DNA from: Candidatus Planktophila lacus
GTDB lineage: Bacteria > Actinomycetota > Actinomycetes > Nanopelagicales > Nanopelagicaceae
Assembly: GCF_002288385.1 (NCBI RefSeq)
Contig: NZ_CP016783.1
Location: 372,001-436,000, forward strand
Reading direction: 5' to 3'
DNA: 64,000 bases
Positions 22,500 to 60,003 of this stretch are shown here, one piece after another; positions within the stretch are counted from its first letter, which is position 1; each line of letters starts with the position of its first letter. Both the position numbers and the translations under genes were made by a program. A model generated the notes under the pieces. It saw only the letters and a program-made list of their open reading frames with translations, did not search any database and had not been told where the DNA came from.

Positions 22500-22505
22500 T
22501 ATACT
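22500..22505 (+). promoter_or_regulatory. Leaderless -10 element (TATACT) for the SIMPL gene
   Basis: TATACT is followed by 6 nt (TAGACC) and then ATG 22512. No Shine-Dalgarno is present. The hexamer is close to the TATAAT consensus. Confidence 0.6.
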
Positions 22506-22511
22506 TAGACC

Positions 22512-23276
22512 ATGACAATCCCAGAGAGCCCAATTATCCAAATCGAACGCCGTAAAGCGATCGCTTTATTTGCATCTGTATTAATCCTCGCCGTTGCTTT
22601 ATTCGGGGGATTGGTGAAGATCGGTTGGGGCATTTCTGCGCGCACTGATAGCGGAATAGTTGTAACTGGTTCGGCGCGCACTGAAGCCGTCGCCGATAAC
22701 GCGGTATGGACTCTCTCTGTCTCGCTATCTCGTCCTAAGGTTGCGGATGCAGTTTCAAAGGTCGGCAGCGATGTTGAAGCAGTCACTAAGTATTTAACTG
22801 ATGGCGGAATCCCATCAGAGGCTCTAACTCTGGGACCAGTTTCAACTTATGGCCAAGAAGAATGGGTCAACGGAAATTCGACTGGTCGCATCCTTAACTA
22901 CCGCGCTAGTCGCGATGTAACGGTGCGCACCAAAGATGTTGAGTTGGTCTCTAAACTTTCTCAAGGTATCGGAAGCATTTTGCAATCAGGTGTAAATGTA
23001 AATAACTACGGTCCGCAGTATTACATCTCAACTTTGGCTGAACTTCGCCCGCAGTTATTGGAAGAGGCAATGAAAGATGCCAAGGTGCGCGCTGATGCGA
23101 TCACCAAAGCCGTGGGCAGTCACGTCGGCGTAGTCACAGGTGTAAAGAGCGGTGTATTTCAGGTGACAACGCCAGATTCGACTATGACTTCCGATGGTGG
23201 CGCTTATGACACTACAACGATTAAAAAGACTGTTACATCGACTGTCTCGGTTACCTTTACGGTAAATAACGACTAA
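22512..23276 (+). CDS. SIMPL-domain (DUF541) protein, membrane-anchored
   Basis: 254 residues. One hydrophobic segment (~16-37, IALFASVLILAVALFGGLV) anchors the N-terminus; the rest is an outside SIMPL/DUF541 domain starting with IVVTGSARTEAVADNAVWTL. Members form oligomers and are linked to envelope stress, but no enzyme activity is established. Leaderless promoter upstream. Its TAA stop forms the first half of the -10 hexamer of the next gene. Confidence 0.87.
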   Translation: MTIPESPIIQIERRKAIALFASVLILAVALFGGLVKIGWGISARTDSGIVVTGSARTEAVADNAVWTLSVSLSRPKVADAVSKVGSDVEAVTKYLTDGGIPSEALTLGPVSTYGQEEWVNGNSTGRILNYRASRDVTVRTKDVELVSKLSQGIGSILQSGVNVNNYGPQYYISTLAELRPQLLEEAMKDAKVRADAITKAVGSHVGVVTGVKSGVFQVTTPDSTMTSDGGAYDTTTIKKTVTSTVSVTFTVNND

Positions 23277-23279
23277 AGT
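23274..23279 (+). promoter_or_regulatory. Leaderless -10 (TAAAGT) built on the SIMPL stop codon
   Basis: The TAA stop of the SIMPL gene (23274-23276) plus AGT makes TAAAGT, followed by TTTTTC (6 nt) and ATG 23286 of the cupin gene. Confidence 0.5.
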
Positions 23280-23285
23280 TTTTTC

Positions 23286-23828
23286 ATGGCCTCACGTCCG
23301 GAAGAGTTAATTGCCTATTTCGGCATGAAGCCCTTGCCGGTTGAAGAGACTTACTTCATCAATACCTATATCTCTGATGCTAAGACCGCCGAAGGCGGTC
23401 CCGCTGGCACTGCAGGCTTAGGTCTTTATTTATCTGCGCCGCGCAGTGCTTCTACTGCACACGTTCTTACTTTGGATGAAGTCTGGCATTTCTATGAAGG
23501 CGATCCTGTTGCGCTTTACGAATTTCATCCTGACGGAACAGCGCGCACAATTTTATTGGGACGCGATATCGCTGCAGGACAAGTTATGCAGCACACCATC
23601 AAGGCTGGAGTTATCCAAGCCGGTGAAGTCGCACCTGGTGGCACATGGTCACTCTTTGCCTGCACTATGTCGCCAGGATTTACCGCAACTTGTTTTAAAG
23701 GTACAACTAAATCTGAGCTCCGCGGAAAGTATGCGGGTTACGAAGAAATCATCGAACGAATGGGCGTTACTGATGGACATGAAACTTCGCTACCTGCAGA
23801 TTACGTAAACGAGCGATTTAAAAGCTAG
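23286..23828 (+). CDS. Cupin-domain protein, DUF985 family
   Basis: 180 residues. The N-terminal helix RPEELIAYFGMKPLPVEETYF and the beta-barrel strands around SASTAHVLTLDEVWHFYEGD and GGTWSLFACTMSPGF match DUF985/cupin_5 proteins. Histidines in the EVWHF region could bind a metal or sugar ligand. Function unknown. It ends 3 bp before the convergent carboxyltransferase gene without a visible terminator. Confidence 0.87.
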   Translation: MASRPEELIAYFGMKPLPVEETYFINTYISDAKTAEGGPAGTAGLGLYLSAPRSASTAHVLTLDEVWHFYEGDPVALYEFHPDGTARTILLGRDIAAGQVMQHTIKAGVIQAGEVAPGGTWSLFACTMSPGFTATCFKGTTKSELRGKYAGYEEIIERMGVTDGHETSLPADYVNERFKS

Positions 23829-23831
23829 TTG

Positions 23832-25223
23832 TTAAAGCGGGATATTTCCGTGGGCACCGCGGCGATGTGGCGCAGCAGCAATAGTTCTAGCAAGTGCAGA
23901 TCTTGTAACTTTCGGATCGATAATTTCATCAACCGCACCGATTTCAACAGCGCGGGCAACTCCACCAGAAATCTTGTCGTGTTCTGCAGCAAGTTCTAAC
24001 TCCATCGCCTCACGTTGTTCAGGTGCAAGGTCAGCAAGTATCCGACGATGCAGTACGCGCACTGCAGCAACTGCGCCCATCACCGAAACCTCTGCGTTAG
24101 GCCAAGCAAATACTCGCGTTGCACCAAGTGATTTAGCGTTCATCGCCACAAATGCTCCGCCGTATGCGCGACGTGTTATCAAAGTTACGCGCGGTACAAC
24201 TGCTTCACCAAAGGCGTGCAATAACTTAGCGCCACGACGCACCGCACCTTCCCACTCTTGGCCAGCGCCAGGAAGAAAGCCAGTAACGTCTGCGATAACA
24301 ATTAGCGGAATTCCAAAGGCATCACAAGTGCGCACAAAGCGCGCTGCTTTCTCGCCAGCTGCTGAATCTAAAACACCACCAATATGTGCCGGATTATTTG
24401 CAATAACGCCAACGCTGCGCCCGCCAAAGCGACCCAGCACCGTTGTCATATTTTCGGCCCAAACTGGCAGCAGCTCTAACTTCTCGCCATCTTTATCCAA
24501 GATCGCATCAATAAGTGGATGAACTTCGTAACTACGCTTGCTTACAGGCGGAACGAAGGTTGAAAGATCTAAGTCGGGAATATCTGTATCCATATGGCCT
24601 TGATTTGCAAAAAGTGATGTCACATCGCGAATTTCAGCGAACGCTTCATCTTCCGATGATGCGATCACATGTGCAACGCCGCTATTTTTACTGTGTGCCT
24701 CTGGGCCGCCAAGGGAAGCCATATCCACATCTTCACCTGTCACAGATTTAACAACGTCGGGGCCGGTAACAAAGATTCGACCTTCGGGTGCGAGGACAAC
24801 GATGTCGGTAAGTGCTGGCCCGTAAGCACCGCCACCAGCAGTTGGTCCAAGAACTAGAGATAGCTGTGGGATGCGACCGCTTGCCAAAATCATTGATTGA
24901 AAAACTTCACCGAAAGCATCAAGGGAAGAAACGCCATCACTTAAACGCGCACCACCTGAGTGCCAGATACCGATGATGGGAAGCTGCTTAGCCATCGCTT
25001 CTTTATATGCTTCAACAATTACCTTTGAACCTGCGACCCCAAGGGCACCGCTTTTAATTGTGGCATCAGATGCAAAGACAACAACGCGATTTCCTTTAAT
25101 TGCGCCAGTTGCTGCGATCATTCCGCAATCGGTGCGTTCAACGAGTAGAGATACGCTACCTGGATCGAGTAAACGTTGAATTCTTAATTCGGGATCGCGC
25201 GGGTCGACCTCTTTGTGGACCAT
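23832..25223 (-). CDS. Acyl-CoA/acetyl-CoA carboxylase carboxyltransferase subunit
   Basis: 463 residues from ATG 25223. The frame runs 40 codons further upstream into fabF, but MVHKEVDPRDPELRIQRLLD is the natural start. The crotonase-like carboxyltransferase halves show IWHSGGARLSDGV and LVLGPTAGGGAYGPAL in the N half, then GFLPGAGQEWEGAVRRGA and RRAYGGAFVAM in the C half (oxyanion holes). It moves the carboxyl group from carboxybiotin to acetyl- or propionyl-CoA, giving malonyl-CoA for the FAS-II genes upstream. It is shorter than most PccB-type subunits (~510-530). The biotin carboxylase partner is not in the window. Confidence 0.9.
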   Translation of the reverse strand: MVHKEVDPRDPELRIQRLLDPGSVSLLVERTDCGMIAATGAIKGNRVVVFASDATIKSGALGVAGSKVIVEAYKEAMAKQLPIIGIWHSGGARLSDGVSSLDAFGEVFQSMILASGRIPQLSLVLGPTAGGGAYGPALTDIVVLAPEGRIFVTGPDVVKSVTGEDVDMASLGGPEAHSKNSGVAHVIASSEDEAFAEIRDVTSLFANQGHMDTDIPDLDLSTFVPPVSKRSYEVHPLIDAILDKDGEKLELLPVWAENMTTVLGRFGGRSVGVIANNPAHIGGVLDSAAGEKAARFVRTCDAFGIPLIVIADVTGFLPGAGQEWEGAVRRGAKLLHAFGEAVVPRVTLITRRAYGGAFVAMNAKSLGATRVFAWPNAEVSVMGAVAAVRVLHRRILADLAPEQREAMELELAAEHDKISGGVARAVEIGAVDEIIDPKVTRSALARTIAAAPHRRGAHGNIPL

Positions 25224-25230
25224 AAAAATC

Positions 25231-25236
25231 AGTTTA
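25231..25236 (-). promoter_or_regulatory. Leaderless -10 (TAAACT) built on the fabF stop codon
   Basis: On the minus strand the TAA stop of fabF (25236-25234) plus ACT makes TAAACT, followed by GATTTTT (7 nt) and ATG 25223 of the carboxyltransferase gene. It would give that gene its own promoter inside the FAS operon. Confidence 0.5.
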
Positions 25237-26469
25237 TAGAGTTGCGAAAGCCAATACAACGTTGTGGCCGCCAAAACCAAAGGAATCATTGAGCGCCGCG
25301 ATTTGTCCAGCAGGCAATGAGCGTGGAGTGTCGCGCACCACATCGATAGTCACTGCAGGATCTAAATTCTCAATATTAATTGTTGGAGGAGCAAGACGTT
25401 CTTGTAGCGCCTTAACAATGAATACAGATTCAATTGCACCTGCGCCACCAAGTAGATGTCCGGTCATTGATTTAGTTGCAGATACTGCAACGTGGTCTGC
25501 GTCGACGCCGAGTGCTAAGCGCAACGCATTTGCTTCAGCAACATCGCCTGCTGGAGTTGAAGTCGCATGAGCGTTTAAGTGAACAATATCTTTTATTGAA
25601 AGCTTGGCATCTTGTAGCGCAAATTTAATTGCGCGCTGCACACCTGAACCATCTGGGTCCGGAGCTGCGATGTGATAACCATCTGAGGAAAGCCCTTGGC
25701 CAACTAGTTCGCAGTAAATCTTGGCGCCACGTGCTTTAGCGTGCTCGTACTCTTCAAGAACTAATATTCCGCCGCCTTCACCGAGTACAAAACCATCACG
25801 GTCAGCATCGTAAGGACGTGATGCGCGCTCTGGCGCATCGTTGCGGGTAGAAAGCGCCTTCATTGCAGCAAAGCCGGCCATCGGAAGTTGGTGAATTGCT
25901 GCTTCAACGCCGCCGCTAACAATTACATCGGCGCGATTTGAGCGGATCATTTCAAGTGCATAACCAATTGCTTCAGCACCTGATGCACATGCGCTTACCG
26001 GTGTGTGGACTCCGGCGCGGGCTTGCAGTTCTAGACCAACGTTTGCAGCAGGTCCATTGGGCATCAACATCGGAACAGTGTGAGGACTGACTCCGCGTGC
26101 GCCTTTCTCTTTCAAATTATCGAATTGATCTAGCAAGGTAATAACGCCACCAATACCGGAAGCGATTACGACGCCGAGTCTTTCCTTATCAACATCTGGT
26201 GTACCTGCATCTTTCCAGGCTTCACGGGATGCAACTAGAGCAAATTGTTCTGAGCGATCAAGGCGGCGCATCTCAACGCGCTCCATCTGATCGGCAGGTT
26301 CTGTATCAACGCGCGCTGCGAAGTGCACAGGCAAGAGTTCGCGCCAATCTTCAGTTAGAAGACGGACTCCGCTCTTACCGGCGATTAGTGCAGCCCAAGT
26401 CGATGCAACATCTCCACCAAGTGGAGTAGTTGCACCAAGACCTGTGACGACTACGCGACGTTGAGACAT
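25234..26469 (-). CDS. fabF: Beta-ketoacyl-ACP synthase II
   Basis: 411 residues, standard KAS II length. N-terminal RRVVVTGLGATTPLG; catalytic cysteine in PVSACASGAEAIG (~162-174); His motifs in HLNAHATSTPAGD (~300) and KSMTGHLLGGAGA (~333-345); C-terminal NDSFGFGGHN. It elongates acyl-ACP with malonyl-ACP. It lies between acpP and the carboxyltransferase gene in the FAS-II operon. Confidence 0.96.
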   Translation of the reverse strand: MSQRRVVVTGLGATTPLGGDVASTWAALIAGKSGVRLLTEDWRELLPVHFAARVDTEPADQMERVEMRRLDRSEQFALVASREAWKDAGTPDVDKERLGVVIASGIGGVITLLDQFDNLKEKGARGVSPHTVPMLMPNGPAANVGLELQARAGVHTPVSACASGAEAIGYALEMIRSNRADVIVSGGVEAAIHQLPMAGFAAMKALSTRNDAPERASRPYDADRDGFVLGEGGGILVLEEYEHAKARGAKIYCELVGQGLSSDGYHIAAPDPDGSGVQRAIKFALQDAKLSIKDIVHLNAHATSTPAGDVAEANALRLALGVDADHVAVSATKSMTGHLLGGAGAIESVFIVKALQERLAPPTINIENLDPAVTIDVVRDTPRSLPAGQIAALNDSFGFGGHNVVLAFATL

Positions 26470-26478
26470 TTAAACTAC

Positions 26479-26727
26479 TTATACGGCAGCGCTAACGATG
26501 AAGTTAACTGCATCTCCTACTGTTGCAAGATCAGTTACCTTCTCGTCAGGAATCTTCACGCCAAAGCGCTCTTCGCAGGCAACTACAACTTCGACCATGC
26601 TAAGTGAATCTACTTCTAGGTCGTCAGTGAAGTTTTTATCGAGTTCGATTGATGCAGCTGGAATACCAGCAACTTCTTCAACGATCTCTTTGATTCCTGC
26701 AAGTACATCTGCGGCTAAAAGTGCCAT
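26479..26727 (-). CDS. acpP: Acyl carrier protein
   Basis: 82 residues, acidic, with the phosphopantetheine-attachment serine in DDLEVDSLSMVEVV (Ser ~42). It carries the growing acyl chain in the FAS-II pathway. AAGGA lies upstream of the ATG as ribosome binding site. Between fabH and fabF, the usual actinobacterial position. The 117-nt gap to fabH (26728-26844) shows no gene. Confidence 0.97.
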   Translation of the reverse strand: MALLAADVLAGIKEIVEEVAGIPAASIELDKNFTDDLEVDSLSMVEVVVACEERFGVKIPDEKVTDLATVGDAVNFIVSAAV

Positions 26728-37146: not shown

Positions 37147-40237
<3,091 letters not shown>

Positions 40238-40246
40238 TCTGTACCC

Positions 40247-40384
40247 ATGATTAACCAATCGGCTTTGACCAACCTAGCCTCTGAAACCGTACGCGAACTT
40301 CCTGCATCTCCTGTTGCTTTCGGCGTCGGCACATTTATCGTCTTTGTAGTCTTTCTCTATCTAGTACTTCGTCTAGATCAATAA
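40247..40384 (+). CDS. Small single-span membrane protein (45 residues)
   Basis: The frame from ATG 40247 to TAA 40384 codes for 45 residues: a polar start (MINQSALTNLASETV), then LPASPVAFGVGTF, and one membrane span (FIVFVVFLYLVLRL) ending in DQ. Similar tiny PxSPxxFG-plus-TM proteins sit upstream of nadD in other actinobacteria, as far as I recall, which supports a real gene. A leaderless -10 precedes it. Function unknown. nadD follows after 24 nt. Confidence 0.7.
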   Translation: MINQSALTNLASETVRELPASPVAFGVGTFIVFVVFLYLVLRLDQ

Positions 40385-57597: not shown

Positions 57598-58874
57598 ATG
57601 CGGTAAATATCAGCGCCATCGTTGCTCTAATTGCATTTGCCGGCTTTCTCGCCGCATCTGAATCAGCGCTGACTTCAATTTCACGCATCTTGATTGAAGA
57701 ACTAGAAAGCAAGCGCGGGGGACACCTTCTAAAGAAGTACTCACAACATCCTTCGCGCTATTTAAATGTTCTGTTGCTTGTTCGCAAGATCTGCGAATTT
57801 TCTGCAGCCGCGCTTCTAGCAGTTGCGCTCTTGCGCGAATATTCATCTGCACAAGCGATGATCGCAACTGTTGTCATCATGGTTGTTCTCTCATATGTGG
57901 TCGTCGGCGTTGGTCCACGCACCTTGGGTCGCCAGCAACCACATAAATGGGCGCGCGCCGGAATATCTGTTGCCTACTTCTTGGCCTTTATCTTGGGTCC
58001 AGTAACAAACTTGCTCATTGCGATCGGTAACGCGATAACTCCAGGTAAGGGTTTTCGTGGTGGTCCATTTACCAATGAAGCAGAGCTTCGCGATCTAGTA
58101 GATCAAGCGCACGAGCGCGGTTTAGTGGAATCAGATGAGCACGAGATGATCCACTCGGTATTTGAACTCGGCGATACCTTGGTGCGCGAACTCATGGTTC
58201 ACCGCACAGATATGGTCTGGATTGAAGGCGATAAGACTCTGCGCCAAGCGCTCTCACTTGCCCTTCGCAGCGGTTATTCACGCGTTCCTGTCGTCGGTGA
58301 AAACCTCGACAAGATTATTGGCATTGCCTACGTTAAAGATTTAGCAAAGCGTGCACTCGATCACCATGAAGCAGAGACCACTGAAAAAGTTGAGCAACAT
58401 ATGCGCCCAGCCGTCTTTGTTCCCGAGATCAAGATCGCGGCTGAACTTCTGAAAGAGATGCAGCGCGATCAGATCCACTTGGCGATTGTGGTTGACGAGT
58501 ACGGCGGTACCGCCGGAATCATCACGATCGAAGACATTATTGAAGAGATCGTCGGTGAGATCACCGATGAATTCGATGATGGCGATGAAGCATTTACTTG
58601 GATCAATGAAGATAAGGCGCGCGCGAAGGCAACGCTACATATTGAAGATCTAGCCGATGAGTTAAAGATCGAGATCGATAAAGAAGACTTTGAAGATGTC
58701 GACACTATTGGTGGCTTGATGGCACAGAAGCTCGGGCGAGTTCCGATCGCGGGCAGCACAATTTCTATGCTGGGTTGGTCGATTACATCTGAGCGTCCAG
58801 TTGGTCGCCGTCGTAAAATAAGTTCGGTAATAATTGAGCGAGTTAAAAATGGCGAGGTTGATGAACATGAGTAA
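57594..58874 (+). CDS. HlyC/CorC (CNNM-like) transporter family protein
   Basis: 426 residues from ATG 57594 (ATGA overlap with ybeY). N-terminal DUF21 domain with about four hydrophobic segments (ISAIVALIAFAGFLAASESA), then two CBS domains (~200-320; RVPVVGENLDKIIGIAYVKD, DQIHLAIVVDEYGGTAGIIT) and a C-terminal CorC_HlyC domain. Members export or sense Mg2+/Co2+; the exact ion is not shown. Standard position after ybeY. Confidence 0.93.
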   Translation: MNAVNISAIVALIAFAGFLAASESALTSISRILIEELESKRGGHLLKKYSQHPSRYLNVLLLVRKICEFSAAALLAVALLREYSSAQAMIATVVIMVVLSYVVVGVGPRTLGRQQPHKWARAGISVAYFLAFILGPVTNLLIAIGNAITPGKGFRGGPFTNEAELRDLVDQAHERGLVESDEHEMIHSVFELGDTLVRELMVHRTDMVWIEGDKTLRQALSLALRSGYSRVPVVGENLDKIIGIAYVKDLAKRALDHHEAETTEKVEQHMRPAVFVPEIKIAAELLKEMQRDQIHLAIVVDEYGGTAGIITIEDIIEEIVGEITDEFDDGDEAFTWINEDKARAKATLHIEDLADELKIEIDKEDFEDVDTIGGLMAQKLGRVPIAGSTISMLGWSITSERPVGRRRKISSVIIERVKNGEVDEHE

Positions 58875-59205
58875 TTCAGATTCAACTAACCTCTTTGAAA
58901 ATCCAGAAGATCAAAAGTTAGCAACTCTTGCTACATCAACTTTGGCACGCTCTGGTGCTAAACAAGCTGCCGCTCTGCGCGATTCAACAGGGCGTACCTA
59001 TGTTGCAATAAATGTGGCATCACCTGAATTAACTCTCGATGCAGTTGAAGCGGTATTTGTTGTCGCCTTGGCATCACAGATTTCTGGAATTGAAGGCGTT
59101 GTCTATGCAGGTTTGCCCGATGCCAAAGTTGCGGTAATCAAGGAACACTCAGCGCAAGCAACGCTCTTTCATATCGATGCAAGTGGAAGTGTGACAAGGG
59201 CGTAA
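58867..59205 (+). CDS. Cytidine deaminase-like fold protein lacking zinc motifs
   Basis: 112 residues from ATG 58867 (114 if ATG 58861). Contains LATLATSTLARSGAKQAAALRD, GRTYVAINVASPELTLDAVE and VFVVALASQISGIEGVVYA. The arrangement looks like the small cytidine-deaminase-like protein that follows the CorC gene in actinobacteria, but no HAE or PCxxC zinc motif is present, so deaminase activity is not expected. Overlaps the CorC gene by 8 bp. Confidence 0.75.
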   Translation: MSNSDSTNLFENPEDQKLATLATSTLARSGAKQAAALRDSTGRTYVAINVASPELTLDAVEAVFVVALASQISGIEGVVYAGLPDAKVAVIKEHSAQATLFHIDASGSVTRA

Positions 59206-59208
59206 GAT
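59203..59208 (+). promoter_or_regulatory. Leaderless -10 (TAAGAT) built on the preceding stop codon
   Basis: The TAA stop of the deaminase-like gene (59203-59205) plus GAT makes TAAGAT, followed by AGCCCA (6 nt) and ATG 59215 of the FAH-family gene. Confidence 0.5.
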
Positions 59209-59214
59209 AGCCCA

Positions 59215-60003
59215 ATGCGTATTGTTCGCTTCTCACCAGGTCCTGAATCAGGTTTAGGTACCGACCCGTTATTCGGCATCCTCGAAGATGACAATCAGAT
59301 CAGCGTTATCTCAGGCGATCCGATCTATCACGGCGTTACCAAGACAGCGGCAAAGGTCGAGCTAACTAAGGTTCGCCTGCTTGCTCCAGTTATTCCGCGC
59401 AGCAAGATCGTTGCCGTCGGAAAGAACTACGCCGATCATGCAAAAGAGATGGGCTCAGAAGTTCCGAAAGAACCAATCATCTTCTTGAAACCTAATACCT
59501 CTGTCATTGGCCCGGGCGACACCATTGTTTGGCCCGCTATGGCGCCAACAATTGATTACGAAGCAGAGCTAGCAGTTGTTATCGGTCGCGTCTGTAAAGA
59601 TGTGCCAAAAGAGCGCGTACATGAAGTTATTTATGGTTACACCTTGGCCAATGATGTTACCTGCCGCGAACTTCAGAAGAGCGATGGCCAATGGGCGCGC
59701 GCTAAAGGTTTTGATACCTTCTGCCCAATCGGACCTTGGATTGAAACTGATTTTGTTCCTGGCACGCAAAGAATTTTCTCTAAGGTAAATGATGAAATCC
59801 GCCAAGATGCAACCTTGGATCAGATGATCTTTAGCGTTGCCGATATCGTGGTCTTTGTTTCACAGGTCATGACCCTTTTGCCGGGCGATGTAATCATCAC
59901 TGGAACCCCAGCAGGAATTGGACCGCTCATCGAACGTGGCAACGTCGTTGTCGGAATCGATGGACTTGGCCAACTAGCAAATAAGGTGAGTGCAAAACCG
60001 TGA
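59215..60003 (+). CDS. Fumarylacetoacetate hydrolase family protein
   Basis: 262 residues. KIVAVGKNYADHAKEM (~63-78), FLKPNTSVIGPGDTIVWP, the metal-binding acidic set in IDYEAELAVVIGR (~104-116) and GDVIITGTPAGIGP (~225-238). FAH-fold enzymes hydrolyse or decarboxylate beta-keto acids such as acylpyruvates or oxaloacetate; the substrate is not readable. It overlaps gltX by 4 bp (GTGA). Usual neighbours such as era or recO are not at this spot. Confidence 0.9.
   Translation: MRIVRFSPGPESGLGTDPLFGILEDDNQISVISGDPIYHGVTKTAAKVELTKVRLLAPVIPRSKIVAVGKNYADHAKEMGSEVPKEPIIFLKPNTSVIGPGDTIVWPAMAPTIDYEAELAVVIGRVCKDVPKERVHEVIYGYTLANDVTCRELQKSDGQWARAKGFDTFCPIGPWIETDFVPGTQRIFSKVNDEIRQDATLDQMIFSVADIVVFVSQVMTLLPGDVIITGTPAGIGPLIERGNVVVGIDGLGQLANKVSAKP

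Follow-up and report, generated by a model that had tools for sequence, protein, structure and literature searches.

Upstream stop codons as predicted first halves of leaderless −10 elements at tandem gene junctions of Candidatus Planktophila lacus

Stop codons and hexamers at four junctions of the window

The window is a stretch of 64,000 nucleotides (G000:C1:372001-436000) of the complete genome of the host, Candidatus Planktophila lacus (G000; 1.41 Mb, 47.7% G+C), a freshwater acI bacterium with a very small genome. At four tandem gene junctions, the stop codon of the upstream gene and the three following bases together read TANNNT and end 6–7 nt before the next ATG (Table 1); these sites were reported in an earlier note, and all four were present. 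Site 1 is separated from the ATG at 23286 by the 6-nt spacer TTTTTC, which contains no AGGA, GGAG or GAGG. Site 2, on the minus strand, lies 7 nt from the ATG at 25223, and sites 3 and 4 each lie 6 nt from the ATGs at 40247 and 59215, respectively. No Shine-Dalgarno (SD)-like sequence was present at any of the four sites, and the base at −1 of site 4 is A. Neither the 112-aa ORF upstream of site 4 nor the 45-codon ORF downstream of ligA had a Pfam match; the latter is probably a real small gene.

Table 1. Genes and predicted −10 hexamers at the junctions, in window positions
Feature	Position	Strand	Basis and remarks
TATACT, ordinary intergenic leaderless-type −10 at −12 of the SIMPL start (comparison)	22500..22505	+	sequence
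SIMPL (DUF541) protein gene	22512..23276	+	ORF; Pfam SIMPL, E = 7.5e-31; its TAA stop opens site 1
Site 1, TAAAGT (stop TAA + AGT), predicted −10 at −12 of the cupin start	23274..23279	+	sequence
Cupin_5 (DUF985) gene, predicted leaderless	23286..23828	+	Pfam, E = 1e-26
Carboxyl transferase (acyl-CoA carboxylase beta) gene	23832..25223	-	Pfam Carboxyl_trans, E = 1.7e-117
Site 2, TAAACT, predicted −10 at −13 of the carboxyl transferase start	25231..25236	-	sequence
Beta-ketoacyl-ACP synthase gene	25234..26469	-	Pfam ketoacyl-synt; its TAA stop opens site 2
ligA (NAD-dependent DNA ligase)	38213..40237	+	Pfam DNA_ligase_aden and others; its TAG stop opens site 3
Site 3, TAGTCT, predicted −10 at −12	40235..40240	+	sequence
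45-codon ORF 3' of ligA	40247..40384	+	reciprocal best hit in IMCC26103, 68% identity
112-aa ORF	58867..59205	+	ORF; its TAA stop opens site 4
Site 4, TAAGAT, predicted −10 at −12	59203..59208	+	sequence
FAA hydrolase (Rv2993c-like) gene, then gltX	59215..60003	+	Pfam

The gap is defined here as the number of bases between the upstream stop and the next start. Five tandem junctions of the window have a gap of 9 or 10 nt, and four of them have T as the third base after the stop, against about 1.2 of 5 expected from a background T frequency of about 0.25. The fifth junction (the stop of 26479-26727 before 26469) reads TAAGTA and has no T.

The four sites are conserved to different extents. Site 1 is identical in five genomes of the P. 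lacus cluster (G087, G137, L009, L010 and L022) and was not kept in the other relatives compared (IMCC26103, L002 and L016), so that its conservation is limited to the nearest relatives. The TAAACT of site 2 is retained in the nearest 13 relatives aligned, with spacers of 7–9 nt among them. At site 3, IMCC26103 has the same stop, hexamer and spacer. The TAAGAT of site 4 lies at −12 with a gap of 9 in both the host and IMCC26103; it lies at −12 in P. versatilis as well, clear of the stop (gap 33), and the G062 orthologue has TACCCT at −12 with a distant stop. As a side observation, lineages differ at the ketoacyl synthase/carboxyl transferase junction (window 25221-25236, compared in L023-L070): some have their own −10 with gaps of 9–12, and others have a gap of 0, where the stop abuts the ATG and no −10 is present.

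Leaderless-type promoters and the third base after the stop

We analysed 856 kb of the host genome and 400 kb each of G131 (P. versatilis MMS-IA-79), G143 (IMCC26103), G060 and G062, which gave 2.46 Mb from five genomes of the family and 1663 tandem pairs. All starts were called by a purpose-written gene finder based solely on coding potential and the type of start codon, with no upstream motif; the starts were thus not picked by the signal under test.

For host genes whose gap is 30 or more, the position at which TANNNT begins is −12 in 19% of cases, −13 in 9% and any other single position in about 3% or less. A TA at −12 is accompanied by T at +5 in 88% of cases, against 8–25% for a TA at −16 to −30. 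This peak agrees with the signature published for leaderless (TA-led) genes of Actinobacteria, for which the portions of the literature drawn on here give a TANNNT −10 about 10 bp upstream of the start (Zheng 2011, PMC3160421; M. smegmatis, PMC6448022; Shell 2015, PMC4633059). These frequencies indicate that the host genome is rich in predicted leaderless-type promoters. The four window sites (−12, −13, −12 and −12) coincide with the genome's own −12/−13 peak.

Tandem pairs numbered 43 at gap 9 and 22 at gap 10, compared with a mean of 17.75 at gaps 5–8 and 11–14. The third base after the stop was T in 28 of 43 pairs at gap 9 and 13 of 22 at gap 10, compared with 101 of 413 at the other gaps from 5 to 40. 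This enrichment, which the earlier note had proposed as a test, was thus found in the five genomes combined (41/65 vs 101/413, p = 1.7e-9). It was also found in the host alone (856 kb; 18/26 vs 35/158 at other gaps, p = 4.2e-6), among unambiguous starts (27/43 vs 56/263, p = 1e-7) and when each gene family was represented by a single junction (30/53 vs 81/329, p = 5e-6). Gaps 3–8 and 11–28 showed no consistent T enrichment in the five genomes. Each gap from 12 to 30 held on average 3.5 tandem junctions with TANNNT, whereas gap 9 had 27 of them and gap 10 had 12. Junctions without TANNNT at gaps 9 and 10 (16 and 10) did not exceed those at neighbouring gaps, which indicates that the excess of pairs at these two gaps consists of the T class. 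No significant depletion of TGA was detected at gaps 9/10 (6/65) relative to gaps 11–40 (48/348).

In regards to scope, junctions with the stop in the first half of the hexamer made up 16 of the 585 tandem junctions in the host sample (about 3%) and 16 of its 55 close-spaced (gap 0–40) TANNNT-bearing tandem junctions. In the genome-wide samples of G060 and G062, which belong to two other genera, T was found in 4 of 12 junctions at gaps 9/10, which does not differ from the background.

With the same gene finder, 400 kb of E. coli MG1655 also gave a peak at gaps 9/10, with T in 1 of 14 junctions, and no TANNNT peak at −12 was found there. As SD spacing produces a gap peak in E. coli too, such a peak is no proof by itself; the T is diagnostic. 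At control gaps of high-GC actinobacteria (pRHL1 of Rhodococcus jostii and two genomes), 34 of 42 and 44 of 51 stops were TGA, and the cases left at gaps 9/10 (5 and 2) were too few for a comparison. A −10 that includes the stop would be nearly unavailable to these organisms, because they mostly use TGA. The first 50 kb of Deinococcus deserti plasmid 3 proved sparse in genes.

The 39 stop-sharing junctions of the genome samples, which fall into 28 gene families, resemble ordinary leaderless-type genes beyond the hexamer itself. A pyrimidine occupies −1 in 12 of 12 junctions at gap 10 and 21 of 27 at gap 9 (33/39 in total), and G was found at −1 in none. The log-odds score over −6 to −1 is close to that of ordinary leaderless-type genes (mean +0.43 vs −0.73 for background, p = 1e-4). 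SD-like tetramers occurred in 35% of long-gap genes lacking TANNNT, but among stop-sharing junctions their share was 19% at gap 9 and 17% at gap 10. No −35 enrichment was detected at stop-sharing junctions (n = 27), a comparison that is uninformative because ordinary leaderless-type promoters here also give little −35 signal, with weak enrichment only.

Behaviour among orthologues and other registers of the stop

In orthologue comparisons, which were run in both directions so that some pairs were counted twice, stop-sharing junctions had TANNNT at −12/−13 in 34 of 40 cases, including cases where the stop had moved off. By comparison, the hexamer was there in 1 of 13 cases when the junction taken had a gap of 9/10 but no T, and in 3% when the genes overlapped or were coupled. 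With the host alone as query, 14 of 15 orthologues kept TANNNT (at −12 to −15). At one junction, a TAGGCT at −12 contains the stop as its first half in the host (gap 9), and its last base is the T of the stop in P. versatilis (gap 4); the G062 orthologue has TAGAGT at −12, free of the stop (gap 19). Upstream of the SIMPL gene, TANNNT was found at −12 to −15 in 52 of 52 relatives called, nearly always at −12, while the upstream stop moves. As judged from these alignments, the predicted −10 hexamer is anchored to the start codon and not to the stop. One stop-sharing junction is also conserved in the genus of G062.

A pattern search of 296 family genomes was performed for the junction upstream of a cysteine-desulfurase-like gene, named from its N-terminal motif MS.YLDHAATTP and not from a family search. 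It gave 73 genomes with TAR+NNT, 2 with TAR+NNV and none with TGA. The T matches belong to two genera (the host's own and g27), and the two non-T matches to a third. In 48 distinct matches, the stop alternates between TAA and TAG, and variation extends to the two bases after it and to most of the spacer, with the T constant; the evidence lies in the ratio of 73 to 2, because the first search pattern fixed the T. Members of the P. lacus and P. versatilis groups have a gap of 26–27 at this junction, with the −10 (TAGACT or TAGAAT) free at −12. The coding-only start calls for this gene were too far downstream in L029, L047, L048, L056, L085, L073, L074 and L082. Since the conserved TANNNT indicates the ATG further upstream, it could be of use in correcting start calls in acI genomes.

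The geometry allows the stop to occupy bases 1–3 or 3–5 of the −10 or to supply its T as base 6. The last register corresponds to gap 4, where TANNNT at −12 was found in 15 of 37 junctions and the penultimate codon was NTA in 40%, against 3% of controls (one per family, 9/31 vs 11/333, p = 6e-6). Upstream genes of this class in G000, G131, G060, G143 and G062 end in NTA-GGN-stop with a much higher frequency than other genes, which gives TAGG(N)T at −12 with the T of the stop last. An SD sequence AGG was rejected as the sole cause of this pattern, as NTN-GGN endings are NTA-GGN in 12 of 13 cases. The gap-4 class is less certain, because conserved protein C-termini confound it. The register of bases 3–5 (gap 7) was found at the SIMPL promoter of L065, L072 and L075, where TA-TAA-T or TA-TGA-T lies exactly at −12; in other relatives the same promoter lies clear of the stop. 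Gaps 0 and 2 were strongly over-represented (56 and 64 pairs in the five genomes) and nearly devoid of TANNNT, which suggests that they form a separate tight-coupling class.

Interpretation and relation to known systems

What was observed here is the motif with its position and conservation, the enrichment of T and the start-site signature. We consider it probable (about 0.87) that the hexamers are −10 elements of leaderless promoters whose first three bases would be supplied by the upstream TAA or TAG stop. In such a promoter, the −10 TANNNT would be held 12–13 nt upstream of the start codon, and transcription would start at the A or G of that codon; we infer both initiation at the stop-sharing sites and leaderless translation. 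For a gene ending 9 or 10 nt before the next start, the TA of its stop would already provide bases 1–2, so that only the T three bases on would need selection. The downstream gene would thereby gain its own promoter, besides upstream read-through, at almost no extra DNA, since half of the −10 is the stop.

An explanation by ribosome-binding spacing is very unlikely. It holds that a gap of 9–10 nt suits an SD sequence overlapping or following the stop (for example TAAGGAG), as in E. coli and many genomes. The E. coli peak at gaps 9/10 and the SD-like tetramers in about one third of gap-9 junctions without T accord with it, as does a survey of 530 genomes in which spacings of 5–8 bp were depleted and spacings of 9–15 bp enriched because of SD placement (Palleja et al. 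2009, PMC2784483). However, SD spacing gives no reason to expect T three bases after the stop, where E. coli had it in only 1/14, and it leaves unexplained why TANNNT stays at −12 when the stop moves. Moreover, junctions without T are no commoner at gaps 9/10 than at neighbouring gaps, and just 19% of the gap-9 T junctions have an SD-like tetramer.

With a TAA or TAG at gap 9 or 10, a single T completes TANNNT, and some cases are thus bound to appear by themselves where common leaderless-type promoters and the TA of stops coincide, and such facilitation probably contributes to the origin of cases. As a full account without selection, coincidence is slightly less likely still: from the non-T junctions and a T frequency of 0.245, we estimate about 8 T cases at gaps 9/10 against the 41 seen, and the T is retained at the cysteine-desulfurase-like junction and across orthologues. 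Base context 3' of stop codons is known to matter, and a T at the third base might aid termination or reinitiation at short gaps. This seems the most remote of the alternatives, as the T enrichment is consistent only at gaps 9 and 10, and both the −10 position and the enrichment follow the next start and not the stop. The T enrichment, its retention among orthologues and the E. coli gap peak without T argue that stop codons have been co-opted into leaderless −10 elements. Stop-sharing as a recurrent, selected solution in the host genus and at least one sister genus is well supported by the comparisons of predicted promoters.

The idea that the stop supplies the TA of the next −10 thus gained from the T enrichment, the orthologues, the start signature and the cross-family search, although its leading example at 23274 is confined to the P. 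lacus cluster. The proposed enrichment of the spacing was found as the peak at gaps 9/10, which is not diagnostic alone since E. coli shares it. The suggestion of a general rule of gene junctions in the earlier note was too strong; stop-sharing is one of several solutions (16/585), which was clear in the host genus and not significant in the two other genera sampled. As a tentative extension, which we hold somewhat short of even odds, the promoter of the next gene may select gene ends in compact, leaderless-rich genomes that use TAA and TAG. With the stop at −10 bases 1–3, 3–5 or 6, it would determine the gap, which stop codon is used and even the two C-terminal amino acids (NTA-GGN-stop at gap 4), and the start-anchored −10 would stay constant while gene ends slide in and out.

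If the interpretation is correct, streamlined bacteria could keep separate promoters for genes packed as in operons by using a short sequence twice, and close packing of tandem genes in such genomes would be no guarantee of a simple operon. It would also offer a testable explanation of gap lengths, of the choice of stop codon and of some C-terminal residues, and would aid in fixing gene starts. The promoter type is known, and the stop-sharing arrangement is apparently undescribed; no description was found in the open-access literature searched, the coverage of which is incomplete.

The stop-sharing junctions share their hexamer, the distance to the start, the absence of an SD sequence and the ATG or GTG start with actinobacterial leaderless genes, as far as the portions of the reports drawn on here describe these; an upstream stop as part of the −10 does not appear in those portions (PMC3160421, PMC6448022, PMC4633059). 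In the overlap of stop and SD sequence (Palleja 2009, PMC2784483), a stop is likewise shared with the next start signal, with effects on gap length and stop usage. In that case the signal held in common is a ribosome-binding site on the RNA, whereas here it would be a promoter element in DNA marked by T; a purine-rich anti-SD complement at the stop was absent from the four window sites and found in a minority of stop-sharing junctions. Translational coupling at an overlapping stop and start (ATGA or TGATG), as outlined in the part of PMC6728339 drawn on here, also yields a compact tandem junction. Unlike stop-sharing junctions, coupled junctions here almost lack TANNNT at −12/−13 (about 3% of orthologue comparisons), and some junctions, such as that from the ketoacyl synthase to the carboxyl transferase, switch between the coupled and stop-sharing modes.
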